A DNA stretch of 64,000 nucleotides from Diprion similis. Lineage: Eukaryota; Arthropoda; Insecta; Hymenoptera; Diprionidae. The stretch spans positions 186,001 through 250,000 of the forward strand of contig NC_060105.1 of the NCBI RefSeq assembly GCF_021155765.1. Direction: 5' to 3'. The position numbers were made by a program, and so were the translations under genes. Below the pieces are notes generated by a model. The model ran no database searches. It was not told where the DNA came from and worked only from the letters and a program-made list of their open reading frames with translations. Of this stretch, positions 22,701 to 63,009 are shown piece after piece (position 1 is the stretch's first letter; each line of letters opens with the position of its first letter).

Positions 22701-25700
22701 CATGTAGAAGTATGTGTAGATTATCTGAACAGCCATCATTATTTTAAATAAAAGGTCAACTCTCGCGGCAATGTCAACACGCGCGACGTAACAAGTGATT
22801 GTATAACTTCAGCGCTTGAATACTGAAGAAGATACTTCTTTAATTACATGTTGTAACCCACCATGATACGAAGATATACTGACATAATGTAATATGTTCT
22901 CGATGCGGGGCGTGCGTTTCGACCCGAAGTTTCGTACATAAGTTATCAAGTACATAGTATACGCTGCACTTTTAATTGCACATGCACACGTACTCTCCAC
23001 GAGAATTGAAGGATCAGTTATATTACTCCCTGCATACATTTTTTTTTCTTCAAAAGGTAATAATTCGGCTGTAAATGGTATACCTTTGTATACAGGTTGC
23101 AGTTAAATTTTAGTAATAGTACCGTTATAAGGAAGTGCAATCTTATAACCTGAATATTTGACCAAAATTTGGGTGAATTAGTTAGTTACGCTACAAATTT
23201 AATGATGAAAGGATAACTATAAAGTCATTTGAAATCGTAAATCGAGAATCAATGATTGGAAAAGATTTACTTCAGTATTAATCTCACAATCAGTTATACA
23301 TTATATTTGCCATACCCGTTGAAAAACGTATAGATGAATTTTTACTATTGGTCGTTTTGTACAATATTATTTTCGCTGAAACTGTTCAATTATACATTAG
23401 TTGCTGATTTCTGTAGCGATATGAACTGTCGTAAAAACTATTGAACTTTCGCCGTTGGAGCTTCTTTCCCACGCACGATTCTTGCTTATTTATCCAACAA
23501 GTTTTAAATAGTATTTGTTCGGGAATTTCGAGGGAAACCGCAAAGTTTTGAAATCTCGATTAATCAATCTTGATCGAAAACTCAATTCATCGCTATCGTG
23601 AAGTTCCGATAACACATTCTTCACGGGACACACCAATGCGACTATAATTTCTCGATTTGCTTAAAGTTGAAAGTCAAAATAAAACTTCACAAAAAAAGTG
23701 GTTTGTATTGTAATTTGCATAGCAACTTCCTTTTCCTACACTCCTTCGATAACCATGGAATTTAAAAAAGATTTAAGATAAGAATTCTCTTGCAAAGAGT
23801 TCTTCGAAAAAGGTCACTTTGATTTTTTTGGAAAATAATATCACAAACAGACCAGTATGGAACATGATTGTTTAAAGCTGATTAAAAATAAATGGTCGAA
23901 GCTTGATTGTGAGTTCAAATTTGAAACTGATTGAAAAGTTGTACAGTTTTACTGATGTGTCCATCTAGAGGATGCTATAGTCAGTCTCTAACGAATACCG
24001 GGTAAAATGTTACCTATTCTGACTATCAAAATCTACATGCAGCACTGATGCGAGAATGCGGCAGTCAGCGCGACGTCTACATGCAATGCCAAAGTAAGTC
24101 TAGGAGATGTCTACCTGTTATAAGTGGCAATTGAACTATATCGGAATATCTTGGCATTATCGTCGGGTACAACAAAACTTTTTTCGGACATTTGTATTCG
24201 GCATTGAATGTAGAATTGCACTGGCTTCGGTATTCTCGCATCAGTACTGCATGTCAGGTTTGATGCTAGTAAAAATAAGTAACATTTCAACGCGGTCGGT
24301 AAGGCTGACTGTACCATTCTCTTGATAGTAAGGTTGAAGTTCGTATAACGTTATCATAACGCTGCGTTTGTAGAATTACTCGTTATTTCGCAACTTAAGA
24401 ATTGCCACAAATTCAGTAAAACCATAATACAGTAGATATTATAAAACACTCAGATTACGCAAATTCATCTCTAAAATAATTACGAAGTTGCGAAATAGTG
24501 ATTTTTATTTCAATGCTTACGGTTAGTTAAGTCAACGTCGTGAACTTCATTCCACCGTTCTTGATGAGGGGTATAGTATAAATATTCAATCGTTTGTAAG
24601 TCAACTTGAGGCTAAATATTGAACTGACCTACAGTCATCTTTCGATTTACCGTAACTCAGTGTAGGTAACAACTTGAGTTTTCGGTGAAGCTTCATCGAT
24701 CGAAACCTTAGTACATACATCAACATGAAATCCCGTAAAAACCCCTGTGATCATTTTTCTTTTTCAACCCGCGTTGGATGGGGTATACTGTATGATCGTT
24801 AGGTTTTGCAAGCAACTTGTACGTTCATTCCATTACACTATTTATAGCTATGTACCCTGCAATAATTGAACATGACCAGGAATCTAAAGAAATCGTTGTA
24901 TTATCATTTATTTACAGAGAAGATCCCTCGCCGAGGCATCCTCGGAGCCATGATGTTTCTTGCTTGTATGTTTTCTTACTTTATACGGACAAACATTTCC
25001 ATTACCATCGTTGCCATGGTCATTCCCACAGAAAAAAAAAACGGGACAATCATAAAGGATGTGAGTCTTTTTTATTTATAATAGTTATTGATGAATAGTT
25101 ATTGATGAATATCGCGCTCTGAAATTTTATAATTGTGTACTTCATCGAAAGTTCAACTTCGAACAATGTATACCGGGTCTCACACTAATTTTCGACAAAA
25201 ATTCATAGCCATGTAATATTTGTTAATTATTGCGATCACAGCATGCATTCATTCTGTACAAAACCAGCTGCTAACTATTTTAATCCCAGGACCTTTCATT
25301 ATTCAAATATCTAACGACAAGATGAGCTCGCTCACTTTAACGTATGTATCAAGTATTTTTTTAGTATCATTAGCAGTAAATCAAGAATTTTTATAACAAA
25401 CTTTTGGTATTGCGCAGAAGAAATTTCCTACTATGTAATTAACCCTCCGCGGTCACTTGGGGTCGATACGACCCCAGAAATCAATATATTTCATATGGGA
25501 CAAAAAATAACACTGACCACGAAGAGTTAATAATCCATTAATAATGATATCATCTATTAAAATGAAAGACCCGTGGGGCCCGAACATTTTCGGATACGGG
25601 ATATAAAATAACATCACTGGTCGCACTACACTACATTAACACTCAATAGACTTATATTACGAATCAGCCATCTGATACTTATTACGAAAATGATGGAATA

Positions 25701-28700
25701 TGTGGTCATAAATGAATCCTCTCTTTAGCATGGTGAGCGATATGACTGGAACGCACACGTTCAGGGAGCTGTACTAATGGCTTACCACTGCGGCGTAGTA
25801 CTGTCTAGTATTCCAGCCGGTATGTTAGCAGAAAAATTTGGAGGTACCAAGGTTGTCGCGTAAGTCTGAAATGTTCATCCTATTGGTTAAGCATTCATAC
25901 ATTACATGTGTTATTGAGTGAAATTTATTCATCATTCCGAAGATTTAAAATTAATTATCTGTGCAACGGAAATTATATAACATAGAAGAAATGTATAATG
26001 AATTAAAAAAAGTTATTCGTATAGTTGACGTTGTATAAAAAACTGTCAGTCGATTCGAAGATAGTGGTGGTAATTACCCTCTTTGAATTCATAATCAGGG
26101 TGTATATAATGTAATATATAAAAAATTTGAAGACCAGAAATTTGATGAAACTTTACTTTTATACATGTACAAATTGTAAGCGTATATTGTTGGTTCGGCA
26201 GATTGGCGACTCTAATTCCTGCACTACTGAACCTGCTCATGCCATGGGCATCTAGTGTTCACTACATGTTCGTTATCGTCCTGCGGTTCCTGATGGGATT
26301 CTTCGGGGTTGGTTTATGATAGATGTCCAGATATGTAGATTTATCTCAATAGACATGTCCAATACATCTGCATGCATACATACATAATACTGGGATTAAA
26401 TATGGAAAAAAGCCACCTCGGCGCCTACAGAACGACAACGGGGCGCTACAATTTCGCGCGTGAGATGGAAAATTGTAACTCCGGTTGCCTATCTGTAGGC
26501 GCAGAGGTCGCTTTTTTTCACGTTTAAGCCCAGTATGTATAACATATGTATATGTATTAAGAAAGAGATATGCCGCTACTTCGAGCTCTAGGCCTTACAC
26601 AGTCTACGTTTCATGTCCAGCCAGCGATCTAAAGTCTTACCCCTTGCCCACAGAGTGCTGTTTACCCGGCTCTACACGCCATGATTGCCAGATGGGTGCC
26701 ACCCAGTGAGAAGGGAATGTTCGTATGGGCTATGCAAGGTAATTATGTACGCATTTTGTAAACTTGTAACAGGTTTCGGTTACCCCCAAATCAATTCTAC
26801 ACGTCGAGGAATTTTCGAGCAAAAAATATCCAGTCGTAGGATTCTGCAGTTATTGACATTTCAGTGAGCGTATAAATGATTCCATCAACCTCACAGCTAT
26901 ATCCATCCGGCGATGAAAAGTACACGGGTATTAAATCTAATTGAAAACTACAGTAGGTACTTATACTTTTGTTGTTACACAAAGTCGGTAGAGCGAATCC
27001 CTACAAATAACGGACCGTCGGGCAACCACAAAAGAACTAACGAGAAGCAACACCGTAACAGTCATAGCCCTTCCCGCAACGACATTTTCGCGTCATTTTC
27101 GCCTGAAAATATTTTCTTTACGGCATGGGAATTGAAAAGTCCACTTTTTGTGGCAGTTTTCGTTCCGTAAAGTGACGCTTTATACGGTAGCGAACAAAGT
27201 CGCGGAATAAAGTTTTTATCCCGCAGTTTTGATGCGCAGTTCGAAGTGCGCATCCCAAACTGCCGAATAAAGTAGCTTCGTCGAACAGATCGTGACATAC
27301 CCTCACTCTTCGTTTTGCTTTTCAATGCCCATACCGTAAACAATATTGTATGTGGCATGCCCGTAAACTATTTTTTTGGCTCGGATAATTTCAGTACTCG
27401 CTTCCGGCTTACCTTCAGCTCGTCCTGAAATCTTTATCCTTGCCAAAAAAAAACAGGCGGTTTACGGATATGCCACATAAATAGCTATTTTTTGCCTTTT
27501 TTGCCCAGCAAAGTTGGGCTTCATAGCTGTGACGTTTATCTTTATCGTGCGTGAACTATCTGCAACGATGTTCGATGGGTGTTTTACTGTTGATGGACGG
27601 GAAAATAGATTTTACAAATCATCGAACTGATCTGTCCGGAGATTCTTTCGGTAAGAATGATGTAAGCTCATCTATTCGGTTTTGTTGTTTACGGTGAAAC
27701 GAAGCATCATGGGTGATGTCGAATTATCGATGTCATATTGGAAATATAACTCACGATTCTCGTGTTATTACGCCGCTGAGTAATTTCTTCACGTAGTTGT
27801 TGAATTTTTTTGAGAAAATCGCAATTACGAGTGAGAAATTCTACAATAAAAAAACAGCAGACCCAGAGCTGACGGACAAGCATAGTATCAATTTTGTCTG
27901 TAACATCGGTTGGAAAATACATTCTTTGTTATATTTTTTAATACCCGGAGAATATTAACATTTGTTTTTACAACTCTCATGGTAGTATGTAATAGTTTAG
28001 AAAAAATTTATCTTATAGGTAGGAAGGCAGGGAATTATTTTTGATATGAAGTCCCGTCTTGTAATTTAGGCTATGACTAACAAGAAACTGAAGAGGCAAA
28101 CTGCGTACGAGTACAGGCTGTGCGCCTACGCAACAGTGCATATTGATGCTCATCAATTTAATACTCCGATGAAACAGTTACGTAAAAGATCTCTACGTAA
28201 TGGTGCGGAATTTGCGTTACATTTCTGAATGTAATCGACGCTGCCGTGTCTTCTCTTTCATGTTACAAGTAGGTATCATTCGCTTCTCCGCAGGTGGACC
28301 TTTCGGTACCGTAGTCACGTTTACTCTTTGCGGTCTAGTGATTGAAGCTTATGGATGGGCAGCTGCGTATTACGTGACCAGCGGACTCATTCTCGTATTT
28401 TTTGCCCTCTGGGTATACCTGATACATGACACACCCGACGGGCATCCGAATATCACAGAACGAGAAAAGGAATTTATTAAGAAACAAATTGGAACTAGCG
28501 TCAACAAGCAAAAAGTATGCAGGAATAATGATACAGATTATACCTAATATACCTGTATAGTGTATACAGACTGATGAAAGCTTTAGCTCGAATTATGTAA
28601 TTCTCGATTAATCCAATTCGCAGGTAAAGCCTCCTGTTGTCGCTATCATCACGTCGCTTCCATTCTTGGTCTTACTTTGGGCCCACTTTGCTAACATGTG

Positions 28701-30337
28701 GGGAATCTACTTCATAGCCACAAACGGGCCAATGTATACGCTCGGGGTTCTTGACTTTGACATGAAATCCGTGAGTATAATATGTAATATGACTTGTCAA
28801 GCGGTCACGCAAACAGTCACGTTCACATGAAAATTTGTTCGAATGGAATGTTGGTAACTTAAGAGGATTTGATTTTAAGGGTGGCATTACGACCGGACTG
28901 CCTTACATTGCCAGACTCGGGGCTGGTGTCTTATTTGCCGCTGCCGGAGACTACTTACGGAGAAAAAAGTACTTGACGGTCGTGTGGTTGCGCAAGATTT
29001 TCATGATTTCCTGTAATCTATTAAACGTACCTACCAGTCCTTTATTTTGTATATACCTACGTTTACTTCGCACGTGTAGCTTGCCGTCGGAATTTGGAAT
29101 TTTATTTGGCCACTCCTGGCCTCGATATCAGTCCACGCACAAGAATTTCGTGTTCACTTTGTTGAAAATTTTTCACGTGGAAAGAATTTCACAGATTCAT
29201 GAGGGAGATTGCGATATTTTTTCATGATTTTTTTATAACGATTTTTTCAGTATTTACTTGGAAATTTTCAAGTAATTTTTCACTTCAATGTACCTAGCTC
29301 TTCTCGTCCTCATCAGAAGTGACGAAATAAATGTACTTTAATCCCCGTGTAGTAAGGTATAAAACGTTGGTATACACATAGTGTCTCATTTCAAACGTAC
29401 CAAGTGAATATCTGGGAACCTAGAATAGTTGCAGAAAATTTTTTTTAGAATGCAGTTTCATGATTTTGAGGGGAATAAAATTTTTCATTGAATTACAACC
29501 CCCGGTTCAGACACATCCAATTCTGTCGAGCCTTTGCTAGGTGATGATGAAATCAATAATCGCAAGGTCTGTTAGTCTTAAAATCATGAAGCCATCACTT
29601 GAATCCTTTAGCTGCAGTTCTTCTCATTTCTGAGATATTTAATTGGTCCGTTTATCACGGTTCTTCCTCTAGAGACTAAATTACGGCTATTGATTGCATG
29701 GCTGGGTTTGAAAAAGTTGTCTATTTCTCTTGTCTATGCAGCTCACATGGCCCCAGCTTTGTGTTTACTTGGTATGACATACGCGGGATATGACAAAATC
29801 TGGGCAATTATAATGATGGTACTGGCCTTGGCTTTCAACGGCGCCGCCTGCCAGACAAGTCTCCAAAATCACCAAGATCTGGCACCCAACTACGCGGGAT
29901 CTCTTTATGGTGTAATGAACACGTTCGGCAGCTTTACCGGGTTCATTATTCCCGCTGTTGTCGGCGTTTTAACCAATAAGCGTGTACGTACAAACGTGTA
30001 TTTAATACGAGTTTCGACTAGCAGCGATTACGGCGTCCAGTTTCATGCTTGTACGCGAGCATATAAGCAATAATTGTATTTATTTCAATCGATTCAGAAC
30101 ACCGTGGAAGCGTGGCGTCCCATGTTTTGGATTTCCGCAATCGTATTTACATCCGCAACCGTCTTGTTTTGGCTCTTTGGCTCGGCGGATATTCAGCCGT
30201 GGAACGACATGAATAACAAAGGAGGAGTTGAAGAAGCTATTTCTACCATCCCCGATGAAGAGAAGAAAATGACAAATGGCAACAAAGAGGCTCAAGTCAT
30301 GTCCGATGAGGAAGAGGAAGAGAACTCCCGTCTTTAG
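16788..30337 (+). CDS. SLC17-type major facilitator anion transporter (putative inorganic phosphate cotransporter/sialin-like)
   Basis: Ten coding exons join in phase: 16788-16812, 24918-25060, 25729-25859, 26202-26307, 26654-26738, 28294-28514, 28624-28770, 28880-29012, 29742-29983 and 30098-30337, giving 491 codons including the stop, the usual SLC17 size. The short first exon (MSLAQILR plus one base, donor GTGAGT) was chosen because its phase exactly fits exon 2; an ATG at 24872 is a weaker alternative start. Exon 2 starts RRGILGAMMFLACMFSYFIR (TM1). Later segments include YPALHAMIARWVPPSEKG (the TM4 loop typical of SLC17), GGPFGTVVTF and NHQDLAPNYAG with MNTFGSFTGFIIP (late helices). The cytosolic tail ends in an acidic run, DEEEEENSRL. 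SLC17 proteins move phosphate, sialic acid, glutamate or urate, usually coupled to Na+ or H+; the substrate here cannot be read from sequence. The first intron is 8.1 kb and holds a foldback element. Confidence 0.92.
16813..24917 (+). other. First intron of the SLC17 transporter
   Basis: An 8.1-kb intron inferred from phase-compatible exons at both ends. It contains the TA-flanked foldback at 21901-22631, a GC-rich patch at about 18735-18845 next to a short GAT-rich repeat (18675-18713), and several open frames (20923-21291 and 21281-21508, both minus) that I do not count as genes. Most of it shows nothing I can name. Confidence 0.6.
21901..22631. mobile_element. Long inverted-repeat (foldback/MITE) element with TA flanks
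   Basis: Left arm about 21903-22150 and right arm about 22400-22629 are inverted, diverged copies of each other. The termini are CAGGTTGTATTATTTTAATC and CAGGGCGTTTCATTTTAATC, directly flanked by TA on both sides, as in Tc1/mariner-type insertions. Matching blocks inside include AAATATTTAG, GTGGAGRCGC and GTGAAGGTCGA. There is no transposase frame. A transcript of the host intron would carry a long, imperfect hairpin. Confidence 0.8.
25439..25530. mobile_element. 92-bp piggyBac-type MITE in SLC17 intron 2
   Basis: Begins TTAACCCTCCGCGGTCA and ends TGACCACGAAGAGTTAA, inverted copies matching at 14 of 17 bases, with TTAA at both outer ends. TTAA target sites and TTAACCC termini are characteristic of piggyBac-type elements. 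Inside, TGGGGTCG and CGACCCCA form an 8-bp hairpin with a 3-base loop (25459-25477). Confidence 0.75.
26388..26535. mobile_element. 148-bp TA-flanked MITE in SLC17 intron 4
   Basis: TIRs of about 40 bp, CTGGGATTAAATATGGAAAA on the left and CTGGGCTTAAACGTGAAAAA on the reverse-complemented right, continue through GCGCCTACAGA in both arms. TA directly flanks both ends, the mariner-type signature. No coding capacity. Confidence 0.8.
27347..27484. repeat. Short inverted-repeat element in SLC17 intron 5
   Basis: Arms of about 26 bp, TATGTGGCATGCCCGTAAAC and the inverted TATGTGGCATATCCGTAAAC, separated by roughly 80 bp. Likely another MITE remnant; target duplication not identified. Confidence 0.65.
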
Positions 30338-32286
30338 TCCCTTATTAGGACGTAAAAAAAATATAAGTGGTCCCACTAATCACCTCGTCTCTCAATAAGG
30401 ATTGTTCTAATTGTACGTCAGTTCAGCATTCGCCTACTTGCAAGCGAATACACATGCTGACGTTCTTATCCGGAGTAGTTCGCAAGCGTCTGCGCGACAC
30501 TTGTGTCGCTTACGTGGATATTTTTTCTCAATTATATTGTCGGTGGACCGACCACCTATTCTCCTTAGATTTTTATATTTATTTACGTGTATACATGGTG
30601 AATTCGTAACGATGGGAAATTATAGGGTGTATCATGTACGTGTGAATTTTGTATTCTCGTACGTTTTTGGATAAGGTTTTATAGTACAATCAGAACCACT
30701 GTACGTCGTATGACGTATGGCGATATATGTAACCAGCTTAAATATGCTAGGGGATGCAGTGCTTTTTCCAATACTGTAAAAATGCACTGAGGAGAAATTG
30801 AAGATATAAAATTTGCACACGCGCAGTACATTCTAACATTTCTCGCCGTCAGAGTCTCGATACACACTACACTTTGTCAATTCGGTTCCGGCAGACAGTA
30901 AATGTTGTTGAATTACGAGAAACCATGCACGATCTTTAATTCTTAATGGTAAAACTACTATTGTTTTTTTTCTTAGCGTGCTTGTTAGTGAGCTGCTTCT
31001 CATAACTCTATATTCTTAATATCCAAAGTTATTTTTGATATTGCGTCACTTTCTTTGACCTAACTGCCCTCCTTGAACCGAATGGAGAAACTGTACCGTA
31101 CACACCTTCTCTGACGAATTGTCAAATCTGACCGGCGTAGATTGATTATGTCGTTGATATATTCCAGTACTGTGTACTGATGGCAGCTAGAAACGCATAT
31201 GTTTTCGGCTGTGCAAGTACGTTCTAATACGTGGATACGTGTAGGTGTTACATGATATTCCCGACCAAGCTGCTATACAAGTACATGGATAATTAGTCAG
31301 ATGTACCATATAATAGATTAATAGATAAATACGTGCCAGACAGAAGCGCGAGCTACAACTAAAATGCTGGTCGCGCTCCTTACTTATATTTTTTTACTTA
31401 ATCGGAGAGAAAGAGAATGACCAAATGATCAAGAATCAAAGGAAGACGAAATATTACTGATACTAGCGAGCACGGAGTCGATTCTAAAGAGTATTAATTC
31501 TACTTCAAAACGTAGCTTAAAATATGCCATATAATGTATTACCACCTCATTGGACCGTCGGTCCGCAATTCGAGCAAGTGTCAAGGCAACAGCTGTATGT
31601 ACGAATACATGGTACAAGCTGCCGAATTTTGAAAACGCTTGTGTCCTACTCTAGCTACTTGGTGCTTAATAATTTTCAAAACCTGCTTCACTTGAGATTC
31701 GGCCGATCAGAGGTTCCTGCTCTTTGGTATAGCCTTGCACACCGATGCGTAATTTCGTGCATGCTAGATGCAACCAGTACGTGCCATTCCATATATATTG
31801 AAACTGTCAATCAGTAGATCATTCAATCGTTAGAGCTTCGATTGTGAGGCAATATATTTAAACAACCGCTGGATGGGGAGAAGGATCCTTTTGTGAATAT
31901 CCTTTGTGGAATATACTAGGCATTTATTCCTAATAACAATTAGGTTTTGCGTCTTACTTTATTTTATAATTATTATGTATCATTTCAAATATCTATTATT
32001 ATAGAGCGGTTGTCGACGCTTCAACTGTATGAGAACGCAATTGAATGTGATTTTCGATCAAACCATTGTTACAATAATAATTATTTTTTAAGAACACTTG
32101 GACCGTGAGAAAAACTAATTTCCATTTCATTGCATTACGCTTTTGTTGCTGCTTTCAACGACTCAAAAAATGGTATGACATCGAACTACCTATATTTTAA
32201 TTGAATAAGTGATATTTACTTTTTGAAAAAAACAAAGAATAGTAAAAATGGTACACGGGTGATACAACCCAGGTTTTAGTTATTGA
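30338..32286. other. Intergenic between convergent genes
   Basis: About 1.95 kb between the stop codons of the plus-strand SLC17 gene and the minus-strand gene at 32287-36057, hence shared 3' flanking DNA. I see no gene, and no clean AATAAA-type polyadenylation cluster that I would assign with confidence. Confidence 0.55.
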
Positions 32287-36700: not shown

Positions 36701-39700
36701 CTAAATTTCAATGACAAAAGTACGAATCTCCATCGGATGCAGAAGAATGTTGATAGCTTCGTCGCTGACGTGTATCGATCCTGCATCGGCATCTCTCACA
36801 TTTTCCCGTTCACGGTGTACTTCGTTCGAATCACTTACCCACCTTAGACGCTCTGACTCGTTCAACCACTGATTACCTCCCAACGTTGTTTCCCGCGCAT
36901 TCTTTACCGTGAAGGGAAGGAAAAGATCCTGTGAAACGTGAAAAGAGTTGACATTATCGGCATACGCTAGCGCTCTGGGAGTATACTAACCAGGTGTGAC
37001 AGCGATGTCGCCCGAAATACACGGAACGTCTCTTGAAACCGCCCGGTTCGAGCCACACATGAGGTGACCGCCAGTGCGAACACATGCACAAGTTTTCGTT
37101 CGCAGGATTTGTCTGCTGGGCTTGACTCAGGTAAAAGTTGTGCATGTGTTAGTTATAACGGCGGTCAACGCGTGGCTCGGACTGGGCGCCTTCAAGGAGC
37201 GTTCCCTGTTTATGTTGTATTATAGCTGACCTTGATATTGATTTCCACTGGGTGAGAGTATCTTGTGTCTTCACCAATTTCAAACATGTGCTCAAGCCTG
37301 AAGAGTAGTCCACCATCTTTCCATGGCTCCAGGCTCAAAATACGCACATTCGGGGGTAGCTGCTTTGTAAGGCCAGATCCCTAAAAGATAATAACATAAT
37401 ATGGAGTTTCGATGCGATGTTCGCAGATTGTCAACGTAGAAACAGACTCGCCTGCATTCGATAATGATGACGCCATTCCTCAAAAGTTCGACCGGCCGCC
37501 GGGGATATGAGGATGCACGGAGGATTCAATAAATTCCAGGCCATCTGCTTTTCCATTAAGATAGTTGAGCTACGGACCGAATTGGTCCCCGTTATGATTT
37601 GGTGCCGGCCACGTACGACCAGTCCCTTGCCGTAGGCTATCTCGTTCAAAGCTTCACCAACGCCGAAAGCATCATCATGCAATATCCTACGATGTAGCTG
37701 TAGGATCACCGCGTGTATAGCAGGTATTATACTTATACGTACATTAAATATACCCAACCTACGGAACTATATTGAAGACATCCAAACTTATTCTGTGCAC
37801 ATAGTATTTACCATCAATTCCACTTGGCCGTCGTTGAGACTGGAGCCACCCTGGGCTCGGTCGTTCAGGACGCTCATTCTTAACTTATTTATTCTGTCCT
37901 TGATAGTGACTTTGGCGGTGATGGGGTAATAGTTACCCGCAACAGGTTCGGCGAGCTGCAACGTCCAAGTAGGCCGGAAGTTTTTCTCGCGTCTTAACAT
38001 TTCGCGACCGTTGCTGTCGGTATAAAACACATTTTCCGTGGCCAGGTTGCTAGTGTAACTTGTTATGATTTCCTTGCCAACTTTATCACTACAAAAGGAA
38101 GCAAATATCATTAATGGTACCATAATTATATGGAATCCAAATGGTCGATAATCACGTACTATGTATGAACGGGTTATAAAGCATTTGATTTTTATTTATC
38201 GAGATTGAAGCCAATATAGCTGCAGAGTTGTACACCAAGTAGATATACGCGTAAAATTTAGAGATAACTCAAAAGATTGACTAGAAACCCTGGAAATCTG
38301 GTCAAGTCGAATAAGTTACGGAATTTGGAAAAAATAACGTCATTTATTGGTTGGTGAATACGATCGCGATGGACGTAACTATTAAATAGTACTTGGAAAG
38401 TACTTGTAAATTGCGTAATAGCATGTTTCCAAAGTACATATATTATCGCTATGTTCTACAATTATAAAGAATGTGGCGACACGCAAGCTACACTGTAAGC
38501 TGGTACTCACTCGACGGGGATTGGACCGACTAGCCAATCATACTCTATATAATCTTCACCTGTGTAAAGCCTGACAATCTGACTGACCCATTCGTTAATC
38601 TTCACATGTATTTCCTGAACGAGTGGACCTGCGAATAAAAGAAGCAGCTCATACATGCTATAAAACACAATCCTAAAGGACAATTCATTTGTTTTATTTG
38701 TTTATCTTTAGTTTTCATTGATGTAATTCTATATTTAGGATACTGTTTTACCCTTATAAGTCTGGTTGCTGCCAACATTTGTTAGATTCTTGGGGGTAGC
38801 GTCTTTGGGCCTGAATATGTATGCTCCGGAGGAGCGAGTTACGAATTCCTCATTATTGCCTTGGCTGCTTTCGTAATAGTGGAAGGATTGGGTGATTCTC
38901 ATGTTTGTAACACCCGACTTGATTTTTCGCAGAGCACACGTGCTTCCGTCATCGGTCATTGAGACGTTGAAGAACTGAGTAGCAAGAGAGAGAACATATA
39001 ACAAATTTCTTAACTAATAACAGTGTCGCATACAATTTGTGAACGATTAGCACTGGAACGAACCTCATTTTGTATCGTCGCTTCGGACAAGCTTTCGCTG
39101 CGTACGGGTTCAACAGTCTTGTTACCTCTAGTGACGTAGTAAGCTTGATAACCGAGAGCTTGGATATTTTTGGCACGAAAAACTAATTCGTTGACCGCTG
39201 AACTCTCTCTGCCGGGAATTGCCAGGACTTCAGGTGGTATTGGAATAATTTGTGTGGCAAGATTAGCACCTAATTCAAACGCAAAACGGACATATAAATT
39301 ATGGCTTCTTTTACATACATTCTGGTAAACGTGCAAATAGTTACATTTGTTTATGTCCGGCAAATATTGATTAAAAAAATAGTCGTCCAAAGGCATATTA
39401 GCGAACCACATACAAATAGTACAAGGCATTGTATTAAGAGCATCAGACGACAACGGAGTTCTGATTACCCGTTTTTCGTACATTCTCCAGAAATATTGTT
39501 GTCCGACCGATGAGTTGGAACTTTGCGGCAATCTTTATGTAACGCATAGTGCTCATTTATGAACAGCTCTTTCACGTGCTTCGATAACATACCATTGGCA
39601 GCTACTTTTGTATTCGGCATTTCTACGCAACCGATGATTTAACGATCGTCATCCGTCATATTTACCAGTGAAGTCTCGAACGACGTATGAATTGCCTGTT

Positions 39701-42700
39701 ACGGGAATGCGAACAAAGCTCGAAACCACTCTACTTTGCGGATTGTACAGAGTCAGGACAAAGTTTTCATTTTCTTCCGTGTACGGGCAAGAGCTGATGT
39801 TTAGTTGGTAACAGGTGTAGAAATGAACTTCTGCACCCTCGCGAGATCTGCTTTGGTTCCTTTTTGAAATCAAGTTTCTGCAAAAGAGGTCTCAACTGTA
39901 CTTCATTCAATCTCAGTCATACGTGATACCATACCCATAGGTAACTGTAATTATCAGGTGTAACGTTGCAAATCGCTGAACGCAAGTATATCGATTAATT
40001 TGAGATCTTCCGATACTGCACAAGCTAATTTCTATCGCGCAGGATACACTTATACACGGTACGAGTGCTGACCAACTCTTCTGCGGCATGTAGATAGACC
40101 CAGACGCCGTTTTTATCTCGACTTACAGGCGTTCCGTGTTCACCTTGTGCCAAAGAAATGTATCCATACGTATACGTTATGTATGGTATAGGTTTTAGCT
40201 GCAGACGGGGGAGGCCCGAGGACGCAACCTCCGTTTACGCCCATGTTGGATAATATACTAATTAGTTTCCCACAAAGTCTGCCTGTGACTCGGGTGTGTC
40301 ATCGGTGTACTTACCCAAGTGCATCTGATAAAATCCGTTCTCCGCCCTTCATAGCTTTGGATAAAATTCTCGCGTAATCCTCAGCAACCTGCTGCTTTTC
40401 GGTTCCAGTAATCGCATCATGGTGTTGAAGTACACCCATCGCTTCACGAAACGGATTCAGGTAAGTTTCCGACGACGATATATTAGTCAATGCTGAAAGC
40501 TGCTTCGATATCTGCAAATTTTTAAATTGCATAGCTATGAATTTGTATCAGCTAGATCTGAATCGCCGAGGATCATAACGAAGAAGCCACACAACTCAAG
40601 TTGAACGACATTTGGACAGTGTATTTCAGTTTATACGTTACATTTGTATGTTGCGCTGTGTAAAATTTTACAAAAGCAAGACAACGCTATAAAAAATACA
40701 TACGTTCCGGAAGCCGAAGGTTTCAAGATAACTTACCATCAAGATAGTTCCGCGCCAAGTTGCTCATACTCTATAAGAGCTGTTAACTATGTCTAGTTCA
40801 TTGTACTATTTGAAAGTAAACTAATTTTTCATTTAATGATCAATTTCTAGTTCAGATTGTAAATTTTTCTATTTTCAATCTAGATTTGATAAAATTCTCC
40901 ATTTTCTGTTATGAATTAAGCACTCACTGAAACATTCGACCAGCCTTGAATACCAGCTGATATGGATAGGTTGACGTACCTGGAGGTAATTGTTTCCCAT
41001 TCTCTCGTAAAATTTTATTGTTGGCCTCGAACTGTAATATCCTGACCAGTAGGTGTGGGGGTCGCTGGCGTAAGGAAAGAAGTCATCAGACTTGGTTGGC
41101 CAAGAAAGGGCCAGCTCGTTGACGGCTTTCAAGTAACAGGATGGTGTCGAGTAAAACACATTTACTGTACTTCCGTGGCGGTCGTTTGTGTATCTGATAA
41201 TAATGGTTCACTTGATTTATGATTATATTATAAGCTTTAATTAATCGTCGTCTAATCATTTCAATAGACTTTATTTCCCAAGCAAAAGGAAAAGAAACAA
41301 ATCTCCATCAACTGATTTGACGGTATAGGCATAAATAGCGAAATGGATTTGGAACAATACGGTTCGTAAAATGTCATCTCACCAAGAAATAAGTAGAAAT
41401 GTAATTCAATCAGTGTATACTGTACATACGTGGCTACATTTATATCTATATTTTACCTGATTAATTTATCCAAATTTTTGAACCACAGTTCTGCACTTTG
41501 ATAATTGAAATCATCCCCCATAGTCATGATAATGTTATTTGTTCGATAAAAACTTTGTTGCGTTTCTGCAAAAACCAGTAACTGCGCCACCTGCCAAGTT
41601 GTCTATATTATACATTGCTCACCATATCGTTTGTATTACACATCGCTTTCCCCCCTTCCCATCCACTCCTGCCTACCCCCTCTGTGGTATCTATCACGAT
41701 CCTTCATAGAAATCCCTCCAAAGAATGATTTCAACTAACATTTTAGTAATGACGTACTAGGCTGCCTAGATTCAGTTTCCGGAAAAATTCTAGGAGCTAA
41801 AATTAGATTCAATCAGTAAGTAGAGTACCTCAGCAGTTTGTCCAAGTTTTTGTACCACGTTTCCGCAACTTGATACGTGAAATCTCCTCCCATCGTCAAT
41901 ATGACATTATTCGTTCGGTAATATTTAGACTGCATCGTGGCGTACTCGACAAGCGACGAAATCTGGCAACGAACGTTAGAATTTAGTTGATCGAACGCGA
42001 TTACGGAGTGTATGAAGTGAAAACAGGTGGCGAAACTGTTGATAACTTTTCAAGTCTTTACATTGGGTTACTATGCGATGTATACAAATATTTGTCAGAT
42101 CATAAAAATAGTCAACAAAATCGAATAATAAGACTAATTTTACCGGGTGCAAATCTATAGTTGGCATTCAAACTTAACATGGACTTGTTGTTCCATTGTT
42201 TCGACAATTTTCTAAGAGGGGCAGAAAGGGAGGAAAGAGTATGTATATATAGGTGGCACGAGTAGGCCAACAAACGCCGATGAATGATCATTAGAGTGAA
42301 ATACATGAAGAGATTACCACTGGCGTTTGTATAATTTAAGTATAGATAATCGTGATTGTTACCCTACGGTCAACATTGTAGTCGGGACTTTCAGGATCAT
42401 CAACGATTGGCTCGTCTGCACAGAGTATGTCGAAACAAAACCCAGGCGGAGGACTGTAAGTGTTGAATAGGACGCTCGTGAACAGATCAGCCTTCTTTCC
42501 TACAAGAAAATATTGTCCGCTGTGATTGTTAATTGGCATGGCTAACGATAAGGGTGAAAGGAAATTGTTTAAAAATAAGTTATCTGAATTGCATCCGCAT
42601 ACCCAAACTGTCACTCCCTTTCCAAATCATTTCGGCTGTTTTCTTATCCATGCGATTTCTCTTATCCTGATAATCCAGTCTACCGAAGAAGAGACCGTCG

Positions 42701-59041: not shown

Positions 59042-59317
59042 TCTTTCTCTATCATTTACTTTACGATATTCAATAATAATATTGAAAATTCCCGAAAAAA
59101 AATGCATTCTATGCTTTCGCTCAAGTTTGTAGATGATCCCGCAGTATGATATACACTATTCATCTGTACATACACGCATGATCTAAAAGCTGTAAAATTA
59201 AAATGAACGATAATGATGCAATAGGCTCGGAATAACAATAGTTACAACGGATTTATTATTGATAAGTTTTTCAATTCAAAGAATATAAAAGCATTCTGAA
59301 GCACTGAAAAGATTTAT

Positions 59318-62300
59318 TCAGTCCCAGTCACTTATTGTCATGTTGCGAACGATGTCCGTATCCTCATTGGAAATTACCGTATCAATAGCTTCGGTTTTGT
59401 CATTCCTTAGATGTCCCTTTAGTTTTTTACTTTTACTCGTGGCAATCATTTTCATTTTTTTCGCAGAATCACCGTTCGTTGAGTATTGATCGTTGTTACT
59501 GAGAATATCTTCCTCAGATTCCTCGTGTTCCTGTGGAACGGAAATTTTTTGCTTCTTAGATCTTTTCAGCGTAGGCAAATTGTACTCTGCGATTTGGTCA
59601 TTCTGTGTTAGAGTTTTTAGTTTACGAGACTCATGAACTTTAATCCATGACTCATAGAATTGTGACAGAGGGGTGCTCGCTGTTTTTATGGTATTTTCCC
59701 AATTTTGAATTTGTGCTGTATCACTCAAGTCTACAATGATTCTAGCCCTTGATTTTTCAATGTGTGCAGCGTTCTCTTGGATTTTCTCGACGAGCTGTTT
59801 AATTTTTCGGCAATAGTTGGCTACACGGCACACACTCAAGAATTTTTTCAACTGAAATAAATCAACAGTCATATATTTCGGTTTAAGTAATGACTTACTT
59901 AAGTATAACAAGCTGCATCAGAGAATGTAGATGAAAATTAAAAATCCATACCTGGGCAATGCATGGCACATAGATATCGGGAAAGGCTATGGAGTGACTG
60001 TCCTTTGTGGCGTTCTCAAGAATCAATTCACAGATAGTATCCATCACAACGTCAGTATACCCGTTTTCTTGCATTTGAGACTTTGAGGACCTAAGAATAC
60101 AGGTGAGGGATACAGGTTTCATTGAAACTTGTTTATGCCTTTTGTTGAAGTCATGTGAGTTTAGTATCTGAAATGGTTTGAATTAATTACTGTCAATACA
60201 ACCCAGTTCAGACTAGACAATAGGGTTTCTATAATTTGTTACGTTGTTAGCATAAGCCTCGTGGTCGTACCTCTAACAGGTATGGCAGTACTGGAATAAA
60301 AGTGCCAGTGCTCTTCGATAACTTTATCAGCATTGATATGCAGTGAAATCTCAATGGGTAATACTGCGCAGTTGGTATCGCTTTCATAGTCCCAATAATG
60401 ATCTACAAATAATGAGAACTATGTGATTAATTGTTGGTACGGCTTGTGTATCCGACTACAGATTAGTACTACGATATCCAGGAAGGTGATGCAAAATCAG
60501 TAGTAAATTAGGAGATAAGTATATTAGTAGGGATAACAATATTTTTAGTTTGATATTGTATGTTTACTTTAGTTTCTAGTTGTAATCAAGAATAGAACAA
60601 TATGATATTAACTACACGCGGAAGGCTGTGCCTGGATTGAATAAAGAAATTGTGAGAGCTTCATAGTTATGATAAAAGGAATATGTAAACAGGTGACTAG
60701 TGCAAGTAGGGCAATAGTCGTAAATGAAATAATTAGAACTTACCTGCACTACAGGATATAATAAATCCCGCAAACCAGATCGAGGTTTAGACATCGAAAT
60801 CAATTCTGCCCATAATTGCAGGGAATTTGTAAATTGCCAGTTGTACAGTGTTTGAAAATTTTCCTGCAAACCCAATTGACATTGAAACAACATAAAAAAA
60901 AAGTGTTACAGGTATGCTTGACAACATTACTTTTACCTTCCGTTTTAAAGTTGTAGCATTTCTCAAGTGAATCGCTAGTTGACGAATATAAAGAAACGCA
61001 TGCTTGTACGAAAGATCTGTGTTCAACAGGTATATCTCAGCCAGGGAGCGCCTTGTAAAATTTATGCCTGGCAATGTAGAGGGGGATACAAATTTTGCAT
61101 TCTCCACATATTTAACATACATTGTCTGGAATATGCCAAGTTTTATGAAGTATTTATTTACTAGGTATTACTAAACCTAGATTTTGCAAGGAGATAACTG
61201 ATTCTTTTACCTTATAGAGTGTTTCAAGCTGCATGTTCTTTTGTGTGGTGGCTAGACGTAATATACTTAAGAACGATACGACCCGAACACTTTCCTCACT
61301 CGTTGACCAAAATTTTAACAAGATCTTGAGTAAATGCTTAATTAATATCGAAAATGATTGGAAGTAGGGTAACATCTGATGAACGTGTTTAAGTAAAATC
61401 GTTAAAATATCTGACGATGTGACGTTTTCCAAGATCTGAAGGGATAGTAAATAAAAAGTCATTAGCTTTGGTGACATGATTACAGGTAACTTTCATAAGA
61501 TACCGAAAAGGTTCTTGCATTCAGGATCGATTTCGTTATTTTTTCGGCAGTGCTGCTATCAGTATGTGTATTTATAAACTTTCAACTAAGAAAGCAAATT
61601 ATGCGAGTTGCATACTTCAACTTTTCACTATTTGAAGATACATAGGCTGGTTTTTTAAGACATCCATTCATGGAAATACTACTTTAAAGATAAGGTACCT
61701 GGTACTTACACTGATCAAGTCTCTCAAATAATGTTTTAACACATTTTTCACTTTGACGAATTTCTTGGCTCTATGAGGTTCAAATCTTGCATCTTCGGTC
61801 AAGTTTAGGAATTGCTTCAAAGCAAATGGAAGTTCCATTACGCATAATTGTACGATTCCATTGAATACTGTGGCAGAAAACATTATCAATATATTAATTT
61901 TAAAAAAAATCGCAATTTTTATAAGTAGATATGCTTTGGAGAAATTCTCAATTGTACCCACTTGCACTTCCCTCGACTTTGTAGGGCAGATTTACAGAGT
62001 CTTCTGGACTGCTAGTAATACTGAGGAGTGCAGCATGCAACGCCTCTGTAAGACACTTGATAGTTGCCGATGTACTAGAGACACATACGATTGGAAAACA
62101 TTGTAAACTTGAGTTGGATGTTGTTAAATGTTCATCGAGAATATCTGTATAACACGAATTGGTTGGAACTATATTTCTATATCCGTTGGTGATTCTTTAG
62201 CATACCGATCAGTTTTGATGTTAGTTTGCCAAGTTTTCAGCAACTGCCAGGTGACTTTCTTGGTTTGTCCTACAGCTTGGGTTGTCGTAGCATCTTCAGC

Positions 62301-63009
62301 CTCGAAGTCACTTTCGTCACTGGCAATCTAGAAATTTAATCTTGCAATATCGCAAAAGACCACTTAACAGATACTTAAAAATAGAACAAGGCATTTGATA
62401 CAATTAGTATATAAAATTCCTGGAAGATTCAGGTGCCTTCAGTGGATGAAACTTTCTTTGGAAGTTCAATGTCCACTGAGACATCATGTATAAGTGAAAA
62501 TACCGTACGTCCAGATTTTCATTTGGAACATGCCTACAGCTGTTCTCGTCATCTTCATCGTCCTCTTCATTCTCATCTGATAATTCAAAGTCCAATAAGT
62601 TTGTGTCATTCTGTTCCAAAAATTTATAAAACTCTGGATCAGTATCTTTCAGCTTCATTAATGATTTTTTGTGTTCCATCGGGTCAATTTCACTGCTGTC
62701 ACTGTCGCTCTCATAGTTGTCTTTAGCTTTTCTGTTGCTACGTTGACCGACACCTAGCTGATCTAAAAAGTCATGAAAATGTTTGGCTGTGGTTCTTGTC
62801 TTTCAAAATTTAAACAAAAAACATCAATTCTCACAAAATGTACCTTTGGGCGTATCCTCGTTTTCCTCGTTATTTTCATCATCAAAGTTCAATCCAAAAA
62901 AGTCATTGGTGCTCACTTTGCTAAAATCTCTTTTGACTCTCGATCTCTGATTCTTCTGACTTTTGTTTTTATTTGGAGGACCAGCTGGTTTCAGTTTCAT
63001 TGCTAACAT
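59318..63009 (-). CDS. Nucleolar complex protein 2 homolog (NOC2/NOC2L), 60S ribosome biogenesis
   Basis: Eleven phase-consistent exons: 62844-63009, 62509-62762, 62206-62327, 61962-62074, 61710-61867, 61211-61435, 60937-61125, 60744-60863, 60271-60402, 59952-60167 and 59318-59851; 742 residues, against about 750 for the human protein. Family hallmarks seen: [19 protein letters not shown] near the N-terminus, [49 protein letters not shown] with [10 protein letters not shown], and [20 protein letters not shown] before a Lys/Asp/Ser-rich tail ending SDWD. NOC2 pairs with NOC1 and then NOC3 to escort pre-60S particles from nucleolus to nucleoplasm; the helical repeats match that role. The start ATG (63007-63009) is the first in frame after a TCTCTAG acceptor, implying an upstream noncoding exon. 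Confidence 0.97.

Follow-up and report, generated by a model that had tools for sequence, protein, structure and literature searches.

Exons 7A and 7B of a lysosomal-type alpha-mannosidase gene in Diprion similis: a probable mutually exclusive pair around the acid/base residue

Mutually exclusive exons are well known in insects, where, in the tandem arrays of Dscam, Mhc, nAChR alpha6 and other genes, one homologous exon enters each mRNA. Docking and selector RNA pairing is one known mechanism of such splicing, though not an obligatory one. In human ketohexokinase a one-of-two swap of exons 3a and 3c (KHK-A/KHK-C) alters substrate affinity. For lysosomal alpha-mannosidase, an excerpt of PMC4006722 describes six Drosophila genes, LManI-VI, and a fly without a direct MAN2B2 homologue. 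No report of mutually exclusive exons in an animal alpha-mannosidase was found by title or start of abstract in the literature surveyed, of which coverage was partial, and neither the word 'mannosidase' nor four fly LMan gene numbers occur in the main text of PMC3228551 or PMC3303723; two further papers surveyed deal with a fungal swainsonine-pathway transcriptome and with the transcriptome of the pig lung artery. Absence in print is not thereby established, and two isoforms may already be present in database gene models. Here, we report a tandem exon duplicate, 7A and 7B, that very probably serves as a mutually exclusive pair in the lysosomal-type alpha-mannosidase gene of Diprion similis.

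The window analysed is a stretch of 64,000 nt of contig NC_060105.1, to which all positions refer unless a genome coordinate is given. On its minus strand, from 46057 down to 36701, lies an apparently complete lysosomal alpha-mannosidase gene with 17 exon positions, which translates into 1024 amino acids with a terminal stop and no internal stop when either version of exon 7 is joined in. This model was made by hand, the borders of exon 17 having been read off and the start codon being a choice. The introns around the exon pair have GT-AG borders. Intron 15 (37381-37451, minus strand) has an apparent GC start, CAG/GCGAGT, and would be a GC-AG intron; the border was assigned there so as to keep exons 15 and 16 in frame. 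Two neighbouring frames were noted from their translations: one on the plus strand at 25000-30340, which we take to resemble a major-facilitator transporter, and one on the minus strand at 59300-63000, presumably resembling a NOC2-like nucleolar protein.

The lysosomal alpha-mannosidase identity proposed in an earlier note on this DNA is borne out by domain score and by the closest structure sequences. Test pieces of 161 amino acids containing the A or the B version scored 61.9 and 59 bits, respectively, against the GH38 N domain (cut-off 25 bits), and matched the jack-bean enzyme at 7e-39 and 3e-39, the bovine lysosomal enzyme at 3e-30 and the fly Golgi enzyme at about 2e-13. Judged by these matches the gene is a lysosomal-type GH38 alpha-mannosidase (subgroup B), nearer to the lysosomal-type than to the Golgi enzymes. 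The translation also contains candidate nucleophile Asp and zinc-ligand motifs, matched by eye to known motifs. Searching the genome with the GH38 N domain gave at least 10 matches, the seven over the cut-off all lying at the present gene (C1) and at two further places (C7 and C8), and those below it comprising one inside the lysosomal-type gene and two weak ones; the C domain gave at least five matches at the same three places. These counts are lower bounds, and a search by exon could overlook a divergent gene. The two further loci (C7:2715647-2716621 and C8:26721047-26721715) carry PLGDDFRY at the acid/base site, where the fly Golgi enzyme has PLGDDFRF, and by this motif they look, by eye, Golgi-type. 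A second lysosomal-type gene was not found by these exon-wise domain searches, with their lower-bound counts, so that no other gene was seen to supply a second form; nor was a MAN2B2-like gene evident among the three GH38 loci found, MAN2B2 not being one of the queries.

Exon 7 is present in two copies on the minus strand, and direct comparison confirmed the coordinates, the lengths of 134 nt and the identical phases that the earlier note had given for them. The upstream copy, 7A (41829..41962), is open, has the borders cag/ATT and GAG/gtactc and encodes GGDFTY; the downstream copy, 7B (41457..41590), is likewise open, has the borders cag/GTG and CAG/gtaaaa and encodes GDDFNY. Each has a phase 0 start and leaves two bases of an Arg codon at its end, and each fits in frame between the shared exons 6 (42363..42499) and 8 (40980..41193). 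Intron 6, upstream of 7A, measures 400 nt (41963..42362), the intron between the copies 238 nt (41591..41828) and the intron downstream of 7B 263 nt (41194..41456). The copies agree at 25 of 44 residues, as had been counted before, with RTNN and the Asp that follows TMG(G/D) among them, and at 84 of 134 bases, differing at the other 50. A change from Y-W to F-W had also been described, but the order was reversed, the actual change being W-Y to W-F (TWYKN / LWFKN). Each copy was found once in the 269-Mb genome and is the other's only strong relative: 7A as query matches 7B at E 1.8e-12, and 7B matches 7A at E 1.6e-12. Given these reciprocal matches at E of about 2e-12, likeness by chance is not a sensible explanation. 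A match of 7B on C6 at E 1.68 was set aside as chance, no GH38 context being recognisable by eye in the frames there. Two scans each of a viral and a bacterial contig collection for orthologues yielded no usable locus, although one of the viral scans reported a single relative, with no locus attached.

Transcripts including both copies reach a stop at codon 357 and those skipping both at codon 326, numbered from the first ATG of the gene model. With translation cut short in either case, inclusion of one of the two is the only productive outcome, and the frame rule put forward in the earlier note holds. Alignment gave no third copy in any of the three introns that flank or separate 7A and 7B (179, 178 and 54 of 200 shuffles equalled the best scores), and a resemblance near 42210, seen by eye, was dropped with the best intron alignments at chance level. 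The 120-nt flanks upstream of 7A and 7B resemble each other no more than by chance (64 of 200 shuffles were as good), and the 120-nt downstream flanks show a weak likeness (9 of 200). At its start (41582-41590, minus strand) 7B reads GTGGCGCAG, with a second AG 9 nt inside the exon; this is a possible in-frame alternative 3' splice site whose use would drop Val-Ala-Gln.

Both copies look to be under coding constraint as judged from their substitutions. The bovine and jack-bean enzymes agree with each other at 23 of the 44 exon residues, of which 7A has kept 17 and 7B 19. In 5000 neutral simulations, in which one copy drifted from 7B (starting at 19 of 23) until its third positions matched at 20 of 44, the mean number kept was 3.9 and the maximum 12, and 13.5% of the sequences stayed open. 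This null lets only one of the copies change and follows a simple substitution scheme, neither of which we expect to matter, the gap between 12 and 17 being wide. The comparison uses two outgroup sequences. Identity between the copies is 62/88 at codon positions 1 and 2 and 20/44 at position 3 (Fisher p 0.0075), and the NG86 method gave a dN of 0.34 and no value for dS.

Identity to the bovine enzyme is 22/44 for 7A and 24/44 for 7B, and to the jack-bean enzyme 20/44 and 25/44, respectively; over the stretches compared, exons 6 and 8 are identical to the bovine sequence at 26/43 and 37/62 residues. Neither copy appears to be decaying, since bovine identity is similar for both. As the divergence between the copies, with 25 of 44 residues shared, about equals that of each copy from the bovine enzyme, the duplication is probably old, with the caution that this comparison covers only 44 residues and that duplicates can evolve fast. 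Since 7B stands slightly closer to the outgroups, the more derived of the two may be 7A.

The acid/base aspartate assigned in the earlier note is present in both copies and aligns with bovine D319. It is exon residue 27 and residue 317 of the protein in both isoforms, mapped by counting along gapless alignments, in which it corresponds to index 270 of chain 1o7d_A; the numbering as 319 follows because bovine Gln321, named in an excerpt of PMC13204073, falls on exon residue 29, a Q in the alignment. D319 is given as the acid/base catalyst of the human lysosomal enzyme in an excerpt of PMC11898060, and D341 of fly Golgi mannosidase II, from an excerpt of PMC12550843, aligns with the same residue. 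Differences between the copies are unevenly spread, with 11 in the first 14 residues and 8 in the last 30, two of the latter flanking the catalytic Asp. Residue 316, immediately before it, reads Gly (A) or Asp (B) (Ser in the bovine, Asp in both the jack-bean and the fly Golgi enzyme), and residue 319, two positions after it, reads Thr (A) or Asn (B) (Gln in the bovine and jack-bean enzymes, Arg in the fly Golgi enzyme). In the excerpted text of PMC13204073 the ionisation of Asp340 of the Golgi mannosidase, the counterpart of residue 316, depends on the state of Asp341, and Arg343, the counterpart of residue 319, holds substrate, while bovine Gln321 is called non-interacting. The two differing positions map to the neighbour of the acid/base residue and to a holding site, which makes linkage preference and pH fair guesses; if the isoforms differ in function, effects on pH response and on the holding of substrate are the most plausible candidates. 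The Thr/Asn change at 319 may be of little effect if the lysosomal residue makes no contact. A change in metal use, also suggested in the earlier note, found no support, as the zinc shell of the human enzyme in simulations consists of H72, D74, D196 and H445 (excerpt of PMC11898060), all outside the exon 7 segment. One sentence in the excerpted part of PMC11931667 counts D319 among the zinc ligands; since both copies contain this Asp, a role of that kind would not distinguish the isoforms either.

The splice sites of the two exons are of uneven quality, and their values fall inside the range of the other exons of the gene. The pyrimidine tract of the 3' splice site of 7B reaches 8/20, ranking 13th of 14 sites scored, and that of 7A 12/20; pairing of the 5' site with U1 was scored at -5.7 for 7A (9th of 15 scored) and -8.3 for 7B (3rd). 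As to how one exon might be chosen, simple steric exclusion is ruled out by the 238-nt intron, which is too long, and mixing with U12-type splicing was rejected, since the U12 5' consensus is lacking at the borders of 7A and 7B. RNA pairing among the three introns gave energies reached by 14, 35 and 3 of 60 shuffles, none clearly beating the shuffles; the borderline case (3 of 60) pairs the 7A-7B intron with the one downstream of 7B. These pairings give no convincing signal of competing RNA structure, and the intron between the copies is if anything less folded than its shuffles (z +2.3). The same intron has nine overlapping GGG words, with a cluster of G-runs at 41650-41716, located 65-126 nt upstream of 7B; its density of such words is 3.78 per 100 nt, compared to at most 1.14 per 100 nt in 13 other introns (14 of the 17 in the model were examined). 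This cluster, spotted post hoc and equalled in number by 80 of 2000 base shuffles, is only a lead to a candidate splicing element.

Three other readings of the exon pair were weighed against these observations. One exon could yield nearly all of the enzyme, the other being rarely used or recently retired and still intact-looking, a reading to which the weak pyrimidine tract of 7B and the weaker 5' site of 7A lend some colour; a long-retired copy would not, however, keep 17 or 19 of 23 residues while third positions are identical at only 20 of 44, and although a retirement in the very recent past would still fit these counts, we regard this reading as improbable. The early ends at codons 326 and 357 could also mean that the pair is mainly an off-switch, in which regulated skipping or double inclusion sets the enzyme level through nonsense-mediated decay. 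Yet early stops arise from any exon length indivisible by three, and one skippable 134-nt exon would do for such a switch, which needs no second, protein-constrained copy; to this explanation we give very little credence. That two haplotypes or paralogues were merged into one locus by the assembly is extremely unlikely: no point in its favour was found, and the copies, with 50 differing bases out of 134, were each found once in the genome and share one gene with distinct introns.

Mutually exclusive use of 7A and 7B is the reading we prefer. Sequence features of such a pair were found at this locus, the exons being adjacent, homologous and equal in length and phase, both being intact and apparently constrained, and inclusion of both or of neither being non-productive. 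We infer that the spliceosome would link exon 6 to one of the two copies, and that copy to exon 8, and that enzyme would be made only from these one-of-two transcripts, those with both or neither running into an early stop. Two enzymes would result, having the rest of the protein in common and keeping the acid/base Asp, with the stretch preceding it and residues 316 and 319 different. The changes at 316 and 319 could tune the pKa of the acid/base residue and the holding of the sugar beside the scissile bond. A further step, that the swap produces two enzymes with a division of labour, one having taken over the core alpha-1,6 cleavage preferred by mammalian MAN2B2, is speculative and on present evidence unlikely. 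If true, it would mean that a catalytic site has been retuned by alternative splicing, perhaps long ago and in common to an insect order. The exon swap at the acid/base stretch would offer a natural mutant pair for the role of neighbouring residues in pH optimum and linkage choice.

By its sequence features the locus fits a kind of system that is already described. Unlike in Dscam, Mhc and nAChR alpha6, the product is a soluble lysosomal hydrolase and the exchanged segment holds a catalytic residue, and the choice of one exon per mRNA is a prediction from sequence. As with exons 3a and 3c of ketohexokinase, part of an enzyme would be swapped, but enzyme and fold are different, and exon 7 of the mannosidase itself carries the acid/base residue. 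The bovine (1o7d), jack-bean (6b9o) and fly Golgi mannosidase II (6rpc) sequences share the domain and the acid/base Asp, each having a single version of the segment, in contrast to the two found here. Lysosomal alpha-mannosidase belongs to a disease-related enzyme family, and the locus contrasts with the six gene copies of the fly described in the excerpt of PMC4006722: the same GH38 subgroup B enzyme would be diversified in both insects, in the fly by duplication of whole genes, whereas here a duplicated exon was found within one gene.
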